Source: Arthrobacter pascens
Lineage (GTDB): Bacteria; Actinomycetota; Actinomycetes; Actinomycetales; Micrococcaceae
Direction of reading: 5' to 3'
Assembly: GCF_030815585.1 (NCBI RefSeq)
Contig: NZ_JAUSWY010000001.1
Location: 3,782,001-3,846,000 of the forward strand
DNA length: 64,000 nucleotides
Under the pieces are notes generated by a model. It was not told where the DNA came from. It made no database searches and saw nothing but the letters and a program-made list of their open reading frames with translations. Positions 43,441 through 46,400 of this stretch are shown here, in pieces (the stretch's first letter is position 1; each line of letters starts with the position of its first letter). Made by a program: the position numbers and the translations under genes.

Positions 43441-46400
43441 GTGACTGTTACAACCGCCCTTTACCGCAGATACCGTCCGGACTCGTTCGCAGACGTTATC
43501 GGGCAGGAACATGTCACGGAGCCGCTGATGACGGCCCTTCGCAAGAACCGCGTCACCCACGCCTATCTTTTTTCAGGCCCGCGCGGCTGTGGTAAGACCA
43601 CCTCCGCCCGTATTCTGGCCCGTTGCCTCAACTGCGCCCAGGGCCCCACCGACACCCCGTGCGGCACCTGTCCCAGCTGCGTCGAACTGGCCCGCGGCGG
43701 GTCCGGGTCCCTGGATGTCATTGAAATTGACGCCGCCAGCCACGGCGGAGTGGATGACGCCCGCGATCTCCGTGAACGTGCCACCTACGCCCCGGTACGG
43801 GACCGCTACAAGATCTTCATCATCGACGAAGCCCACATGGTCACCTCGGCCGGCTTCAACGCCCTGCTCAAGATCGTGGAAGAACCGCCGGAGCACATTA
43901 AGTTCATCTTCGCCACCACGGAGCCGGACAAGGTGATCGGCACCATCCGCTCGCGCACGCACCACTACCCCTTCCGCCTGGTGCCGCCGGAGCCGCTGAT
44001 GTCATACCTGGAACTCCTGTGCAAACAGGAGAATGTTCCGGTGGCCCCCGGTGTCCTGTCCTTGGTGATCCGGGCAGGCGGCGGGTCAGTCCGGGATTCC
44101 CTGTCCGTGCTGGACCAGCTCATGGCCGGAGCGGGGCCAGGCGGCCTGGACTACGAGCTCGCCGTCGCGCTGCTGGGCTACACGCATGCCTCCCTGCTTG
44201 ACGATGTTGTGGAAGCCGTGGCGGCATCGGATGCCGCCACCGTGTTCCGGGCGGTAGACCGCGTCATCCAGACCGGCCATGATCCGCGCCGTTTCGTTGA
44301 GGACCTGCTGGAACGCTTCCGCGACCTGATCATCGTCCAGGCAATGCCGGAAAGCGCCCAGGCCATCCTGCGCGGCATGCCGGCGGACCAGATCGCCCGG
44401 CTCCAGAACCAGGCCCACAACCTGGGCGCAGCTGAACTTTCCCGCGCCGCGGACGTCACCAACACCGCACTGACAGAGATGACCGGTGCTACCTCGCCCC
44501 GGTTGCAACTTGAACTTCTCTGTGCCCGCATCCTGCTGCCCAGCTCTGAACCGACCGAACGCGGCATTGCCGCCCGGATCGACCGAGTGGAGCGGCGTCT
44601 CAACTATGCGGGGACCGACGCCGGCAATTCCCTTGCGCCGCTAACGTCCGTTCCGGCACCGGCAGTTCCGGCACCGGCAGTTCCGGCGACCGCAGGACCG
44701 GCAACGTCAACCCCCGCTGCTGAAGTACCCCAGTCCCAGCAGCCTCAGTCACCTCAGCCGCCTCAGGGAGCCGAGCCCCGCCAGCCGCTGACGCCGCCCA
44801 GGGTCAGCACCGCAGACTGGCCAGTAGATGAGGCCGGCGCTGCGAGCTCCGCTCCGGCACCCGTTGTTGACGCGCGCCCCACGCAGGCTCCGGCGCCGGT
44901 GGTGGCAGCACCGCCCAAGACGGCTCCTTCGCCTGGACCGGCGGCACCAGGGCCCGCGGCACCCGCTGCGCCACGCCAAGGAGGCGCTCCCGCCACTGAA
45001 CCCGCAGCCGTCGCTGCGGCCGCCCCCTCTCAGTCGCCCGCCACCCTAGGTGCCGCCGGTGACGTCGAGGTCCTCCGCCGTGCCTGGCCGGAAATCCTGC
45101 AGACACTCTCCAAAATCAAGCGCAGCACCTGGGCACTGGTGGAGCCCAACGCCCAGGTGGGTGCCTTTGACGGACTGGTCCTCACGCTTTCCTTCACCAC
45201 AACGGGCCTGGCGGGTGCCTTCGGCCGCGCCGACCATTCAGATAACCTCCGCCAGGCAATCCACAAGACAGTGGGCATCGACTGCCAGATCACCGCAGTT
45301 GCCGGTGGGACCAACAGCGCAGCGAGCTCTGAGCCAAACCCAAAAGCACCCGCTAGCCCGGAGGTCCCAGCCACGTCCGCGGATGTGGCGTGGGGCCTCG
45401 CCCCCGTCGGCGGCTCAGTGGCGACGGACCCCGTCGCGAAGGGAGAGCGGGCAGAAGAGAGGGTGGCCGTATCTCCTGAATCACTGGCAGCGACGATCCA
45501 GCGGTCAGCTCCGAGTTCAGGTCGGGAGCAGCCTCAGTCAGCAGAATTGAGCCATGCAGAGCCTAAAAACGCTGCCACGGAAGCTCCCGCCGCGCCCGAT
45601 TCACCGGATGCACCCGACACGGCCGAAGTGCCGGGCACGGATCTCGGCACTGCCGGCACGTACGCCTACTCCGACGATGACTGGGGTCCGCCCCGGGACG
45701 AGGATGCTCCGTCGTTGGACGAGGAACCCCCTATGGACTGGGACCCCTCAGCGCCTGTTGGACCGCGACACACGGCTTCCGCCGCCGGAGCTGGTGCTGG
45801 TGCCGGTGCCGGTGCCGGTGCCGGTGCCGCAACGCAAGCAAAAAAGCCCGCATCGGGAACGGTCCGGGCCGCGGCGCCCGCCGGTGCACCTACGCCACTG
45901 GTACCTGCACCGGCACCAGCAGGAGCAGGAGCAGGAGCAGGAGCAGGAGCACCGAAGCCTGACACGGCGCGCGATCCATGGACCCGTGCTGTAGAGCAGG
46001 CACCAGGAGTCTGGGTCATCGGCAGCGAGAGCAACGTGGGAAAGAGCGCCACCGCACCCTCTCCGGATGAAGCCGCAAGCCCCGCAGTTCCACCTCCGGC
46101 TTACGAGCCTGCCGCTGCCCAGGTGCCCCCATCTGCTCCCCTCAAGAACCCAGAACCGGATCCGGGAGCCGATTGGGGGCTCCCAGCTACCCCTGCAATC
46201 CGCCCCGCTCCGGAACCCTTCACTCCGGCGTCCGCTCCTACTATGGAGCCGGCCGCGTCGGAGCGGGTACGGGAACCTGTTTACGCCATGGCATCCTCGG
46301 CTCCCCAAGCCGCACCTCCGCAGCCTGCGCCAGCCACTTCACCGTCAGCGGCCGCCGCCAGGCAGAGCCTTTACCAGCGCCTGTCCAACAGCCCCGAAGC

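Follow-up and report, generated by a model that had tools for sequence, protein, structure and literature searches.

The window, a 64,000-nt stretch of Arthrobacter pascens DNA, contains dnaX at 43441..46596 on the forward strand, to which all parts of the gene described below also belong. The gene starts with GTG at 43441 and ends with the stop codon at 46594-46596; its translation is a full-length, tau-like DnaX of 1051 aa, which matched TIGR02397 with 392.8 bits and carried PF12169 at residues 241-374. A small SRP RNA lies upstream and recR downstream. When the region 43200-46700 was searched against Rfam, 8 matches were listed at E ≤ 5, among which only the bacterial small SRP RNA (RF00169, 65.7 bits), located at 43278-43374 directly upstream of dnaX, exceeded the gathering score. 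Rfam includes a model for a dnaX frameshift element, and this model was not among the 8 matches listed. Genes for tRNA-Lys(CUU) and tRNA-Lys(UUU) are both present in the genome. Two dnaX copies were observed about 11 kb apart on one contig of Sinomonas susongensis (L021 and L022); the second has a different end (920 aa), perhaps owing to duplication or to an assembly artefact.

Modelling of residues 534-632 of DnaX (45040..45336) gave a KH-like domain. Foldseek alone returned no match for this block at E ≤ 0.001, and comparison with PF20964 (DnaX_C) gave an E value of only 0.12. The same block, at residues of about 535-625, was considered as domain III and rejected, since that domain is represented by the PF12169 match farther upstream. 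Close to the C terminus, the motif SADDETIEESGVFGRAAVERILGGKLIEE (46471..46557) was found, similar to a motif at the C-termini of DnaX proteins from the class and the order; a loose pattern of it matched 21 of 23 class and 48 of 48 order sequences.

An in-phase heptamer of the X_XXY_YYZ type, as used in E. coli-type dnaX frameshifting, was observed directly behind the KH-like domain. It is C_CCA_AAA at 45339..45345 (codons AAC CCA AAA), near residue 633 and about 500 bases upstream of the A_AAA_AAG on which the earlier note had focused. The first comparison used the best 80 of 530 confirmed dnaX loci plus the window, to which ten Micrococcaceae loci were later added to give 91. C_CCA_AAA was in phase near residue 633 in the window and in 73 of the 80; three of the remaining seven were contigs ending early (L035, L041, and L057) and four belonged to Kocuria (L056, L060, L061, and L067). 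These seven and L093 were the 8 Micrococcaceae loci without it in the enlarged set (83 of 91 positive). L095, from genus g3, was counted as positive, although its heptamer is far from the KH-like block and of doubtful role. For the second, partly overlapping sample, which was spread over genera, 61 genomes of the family yielded 30 loci, taken best-scoring first, and the 28 newly numbered ones were examined; 25 had the heptamer, L210, L216, and L222 being the exceptions, and 3 of the 25 site contexts (L219, L220, and L232) were identical to ones in the first sample. Both samples consist of best-scoring loci rather than random draws, and relatedness inflates the raw counts. Elsewhere in the 91 dnaX genes, in-phase C_CCA_AAA occurred only 3 times in 97,254 codons. 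The base following the heptamer, which was outside the search pattern, was G in 83 of 83 cases.

The heptamer is closely followed by a stop codon in the -1 frame. In the window, the -1 reading after C_CCA_AAA is AGC ACC CGC and then TAG (45345..45356; the stop at 45354-45356), three codons past the site. Among 76 heptamers from 74 loci, a -1 stop lay within 4 codons in 58 and within 12 codons in 74; in 10 of the 74 loci, it was reached only after 12 (eight loci) or 24 codons (two loci). When all linker positions of the same dnaX genes were taken as background, the corresponding frequencies were 7.9% within 4 codons and 22.7% within 15. Counting one site per gene, with the site having the nearest -1 stop taken, a stop within 4 codons was found in the -1 frame in 64 of 83 genes of the first sample and 20 of 25 of the second, versus 5 of 83 and 1 of 25 in the +1 frame. 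By distinct contexts, the -1 count was 59 of 78. The stop varied in identity (TAG, TGA, or TAA) and in position (1 to 4 codons), its nearness being the constant feature.

Constraint at the nucleotide level was measured as excess codon identity in gene pairs having the same residue, corrected for amino acid, in 88 untruncated genes, whether or not they had the heptamer (873 of 3,490 pairs used). The strongest peak of the whole gene was at residues 626-636 (45316..45348); the top six windows at widths of 3, 5, and 7 all began at residues 626-634, with z up to 4.7. An earlier analysis of only the 83 heptamer-bearing genes, a choice that favours the site, gave the same peak with z up to 4.8. The codons involved are not the usual ones, as CCA accounts for 10% of Pro and AAA for 18% of Lys elsewhere in these dnaX genes. 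As a control, recR was found to encode Pro-Lys in all 84 loci in which its motif was found and to do so with C_CCA_AAA in 1 of 84, namely the window; this copy lies in the codons GGC CCA AAA TCC near 46726-46737 of the window's recR (46669-47268).

Sequences that could stimulate slippage were enriched around the heptamer. A perfect stem-loop starting 2-14 nt behind it scored at least 15 in 18 of 25 second-sample loci versus 12.5% of random linker positions; in the first sample, hairpins scored at least 15 in 49% of 83 versus 13%. In relatives, the near stems begin mostly 2-11 nt past the heptamer; in L228, a perfect stem of 11 bp begins 2 nt past it. No such near hairpin was found in the window; a strong stem-loop (45361..45399; 17 bp with one bulge) begins there at 15 nt instead, and the stretch 45346-45400 folds with -33.5 kcal/mol (z -4.07). 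For a long hairpin examined in the window's clade, with its structure taken from the window itself, pairing was seen in 284 of 391 cells versus 103-177 of 345-391 when slid. Minimum free energies of 60 nt contrasted weakly with those at random positions (-23.9 vs -20.7).

Base pairing was further examined in alignment A1, composed of 37 rows (25 second-sample loci, the window, and 11 first-sample loci chosen with their hairpins already known). The helix of columns 16-23/28-35 was paired in 71.7% of cells versus 23-49% when slid, and 29 cells were changed on both sides versus 15.8 in shuffles; the helix columns were drawn from the alignment itself, so that the count leans towards that helix. 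A recount with only the 25 second-sample rows gave 69.1% versus 24-49%, with 24 cells changed on both sides. Run on A1 with its gaps, RNAalifold predicted no consensus structure. E. coli-type dnaX frameshifting also involves an SD-like sequence about 10 nt upstream of the heptamer. Such an element was enriched in the second sample, in which alone the comparison with background was made (median anti-SD pairing -9.4 vs -3.5 kcal/mol); in the window, as in many of its near relatives, the pairing was weak (-2.8).

The observations are best explained by a programmed -1 ribosomal frameshift at C_CCA_AAA, by which dnaX of the Micrococcaceae would, with high probability, produce a DnaX of 638 aa in addition to that of 1051 aa in the window. 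The shift, its frequency, and the role of the short form are what we infer from sequence comparison. During translation, tRNA-Pro on CCA and tRNA-Lys(UUU) on AAA would slip one base back, to CCC and AAA, and in many relatives the enriched upstream anti-SD pairing and downstream hairpin might aid the slip. Shifted ribosomes would meet a stop within a few codons, which in the window is the TAG reached after three codons. The predicted product (43441..45356 in the -1 reading) has 635 zero-frame residues followed by Ser-Thr-Arg. It would keep the AAA+ domains, domain III, and the KH-like domain, and lose the Pro/Ala-rich tail with the C-terminal motif. It would not end ahead of the tau-specific C-terminal domains.

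The alternative that survives best, though it is unlikely, is that the constraint at 45316-45348 serves some purpose without any change of frame, such as pausing of translation at the boundary of the KH-like domain with the tail, internal initiation, or RNA processing or binding at this site. Consistent with this, the constraint reaches upstream of the heptamer. SD-like elements and hairpins are also able to pause ribosomes, so that their enrichment would fit a pause too. Such functions leave unexplained a slippery, frame-locked heptamer having near stops in the -1 but not in the +1 frame.

That the programmed site is instead A_AAA_AAG, giving a product of 840 aa, was the proposal of the earlier note, and we regard it as very improbable. 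Its reading of the sequence was accurate. GCA AAA AAG at 45838-45846 is in the dnaX frame, placing an in-phase E. coli-type heptamer at 45840..45846, and the first -1 stop is the TGA at 45960..45962, reached after 38 codons to give the 840 aa. The flanking hexanucleotide repeats, GCYGGT and GGAGCA, are also present, and the heptamer lies in a repeat-built Ala-Gly linker of DnaX. Pairing between the GCYGGT and GCACCGGC repeats of 45795-45925 gives a hairpin of very high stability (-84.1 kcal/mol, z -5.2). The heptamer is in an internal loop of this large hairpin, which surrounds it and could be taken in favour of the site. As to the GC-rich stems described just downstream, the 59 nt there showed no more structure than their shuffled versions (z +1.2), so these stems are what base composition gives.

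The presence of the heptamer had been called striking, and for one given gene it is indeed uncommon, with about 0.01 expected per 1,051-codon gene; extrapolated at the same rate, about 17 would be expected genome-wide. Among ORFs predicted over 464 kb of the genome, a set that leaves out dnaX itself, no in-phase copy occurred in 111,475 codons versus 1.3 expected from codon use. Conservation, which the earlier note had suggested checking, decided the matter: the heptamer is missing from close relatives, an outcome that the note had named as refuting its proposal. A_AAA_AAG was in phase in none of the relatives' 80 loci (3 truncated ahead of the region), and the window's AKKPA is AKRPA in three of the twelve nearest relatives (L002, L006, and L026), with other residues in the rest. 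Across three overlapping dnaX sets, in-phase copies numbered 1 of 91 (the window itself), 0 of 60, and 1 of 87 (L157, from another family), many loci of the last set being cut near residue 864. With this site private to the genome, it was rejected as functional for want of conservation in relatives, and the ordinary downstream fold and the two Lys tRNAs of the genome also speak against it. It is probably accidental, and some leaky slippage may occur there. The conserved heptamer of dnaX is C_CCA_AAA, not A_AAA_AAG. The claim of programmed -1 frameshifting in dnaX would hold in kind, through the conserved signal at 45339, and fails in place. The expectation of a cut after the conserved block (residues 540-625), making a short form unlike E. 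coli gamma, is true of the conserved site as well. At residue 436 of L157 dnaX (family f3), the in-phase A_AAA_AAG is followed by a -1 stop 4 codons on and may be an E. coli-like site.

Two further explanations are barely tenable. Transcriptional slippage on an A run is known for Thermus dnaX, which has nine As, from the accessible parts of PMC3711429 and PMC5009743; as a source of the short form here it is extremely improbable, there being four As only, near +1 stops being rare, and the kept CCC being left unexplained. Conservation of nothing but the protein sequence Pro-Lys, which the heptamer encodes and which might be useful in itself, has next to no chance of being correct, given the rare codons used, which the invariant Pro-Lys of recR has in only 1 of its loci, the synonymous-constraint peak, and the otherwise unexplained -1 stops.

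The spread of the proposed frameshift signal was surveyed beyond the Micrococcaceae. The order-level set comprised 60 of 149 genomes (10 of Micrococcaceae, 7 of family f3, and 43 of f2 and f4-f20). After residue 350, no in-phase C_CCA_AAA was detected in the 43 loci of f2 and f4-f20, one of which (L136) is broken. Outside the order, none was detected in 27 class loci, a set that may or may not include Mycobacterium (30 loci from 40 genomes in all; four end early). Family f3 was sampled with 30 of its 41 genomes, and C_CCA_AAA was present after residue 500 in 8, 7 of them having a -1 stop within 5 codons. Other heptamers with an overlapping stop were C_CCT_TTT in 3 genomes and G_GGT_TTT in one; the C_CCT_TTT of L161, L163, and L170, overlapped by a -1 TAG or TGA, is possibly another shift site with the same purpose. 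Sites directly behind the KH-like block were seen in L166, L167, L173, and L177, with L173 lacking a near stop, and less clearly in L158 and L172. Compared with the Micrococcaceae, f3 gave fewer and weaker cases.

Recoding of dnaX has been reported in enterobacteria, Neisseria, Vibrio, Thermus, Chlorobium, and others, according to the accessible parts of PMC3711429, PMC5009743, and PMC3290774. In what is accessible of a 2012 review, most other bacteria are described as keeping no dnaX frameshift signatures and as possibly not making gamma (PMC3290774). The accessible text of these three papers names no actinobacterial dnaX frameshift, and the 12 genera with two-ORF dnaX genes from GeneTack are only partly named there. 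Similarly, no description of dnaX frameshifting in Arthrobacter, Micrococcus, Streptomyces, or Actinobacteria was found in the literature searched, in so far as its text was accessible; an earlier description is possible, because subscription literature was mostly outside the search.

The choice of heptamer may be related to the tRNAs. E. coli has a single tRNA-Lys, which makes its dnaX shift site shifty, and possession of two Lys tRNAs is a possible reason why Thermus dnaX avoids ribosomal shifting of the A_AAA_AAG type, as stated in the accessible part of PMC5009743. At the end of C_CCA_AAA, AAA should be read solely by tRNA-Lys UUU, and the shiftiness of the heptamer would come from this UUU-only reading. 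This suggests a shift site matched to decoding with two tRNA-Lys, under which A_AAA_AAG is expected to work poorly. In a wider form, which we consider somewhat better than an even proposition, high-GC bacteria with two Lys tRNAs would have their own dnaX frameshift at C_CCA_AAA (in the second family also at C_CCT_TTT overlapped by a stop), yielding a third kind of DnaX that consists of the whole clamp loader plus the KH-like domain but lacks the C-terminal tail motif found repeatedly among Actinomycetes. If this is true, recoding gave rise to a short DnaX separately from the E. coli case, and with the cut at another point. Arguments over whether gamma-like clamp-loader subunits are important have drawn on E. 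coli and a small number of other examples. A signal conserved in a distant phylum, with a different heptamer, would offer a natural and independent test of the usefulness of a tail-less DnaX, and C_CCA_AAA provides a named site open to synonymous change.

Several known systems can be compared with the one proposed here. The shift site of E. coli copA is C_CCA_AAG, with AAG as the A-site codon where AAA is found here, and the gene is unrelated. As predicted for the Micrococcaceae, the -1 shift in copA leads to a truncated product (PMC5009743, accessible part). The dnaX of Mycobacterium tuberculosis likewise encodes an actinobacterial DnaX, but its expression in E. coli yielded tau alone, according to the accessible part of PMC4731781. 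Thermus thermophilus dnaX and the dnaX genes with two ORFs described in the GeneTack study of 2013 share the production of a second DnaX form by recoding (PMC3711429 and PMC5009743, accessible parts); they differ in relying on slippage of the polymerase along long runs of A, or in making tau from the shift, whereas here a short heptamer would give the short form from the shift. The closest parallel is E. coli dnaX, which, in the accessible parts of PMC3711429 and PMC5009743, shows an in-phase tandem slippery heptamer in the same gene, an upstream SD-like element, a downstream stem-loop, a near -1 stop, and a shortened clamp-loader subunit. The two differ in the heptamer, A_AAA_AAG there and C_CCA_AAA here, and in the two Lys tRNAs present here. 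They also differ in the cut: E. coli gamma contains three of the five domains of tau (PMC3290774, accessible part), whereas the cut predicted here falls after the KH-like domain, which resembles domain V of tau, so that the tail alone would be lost.
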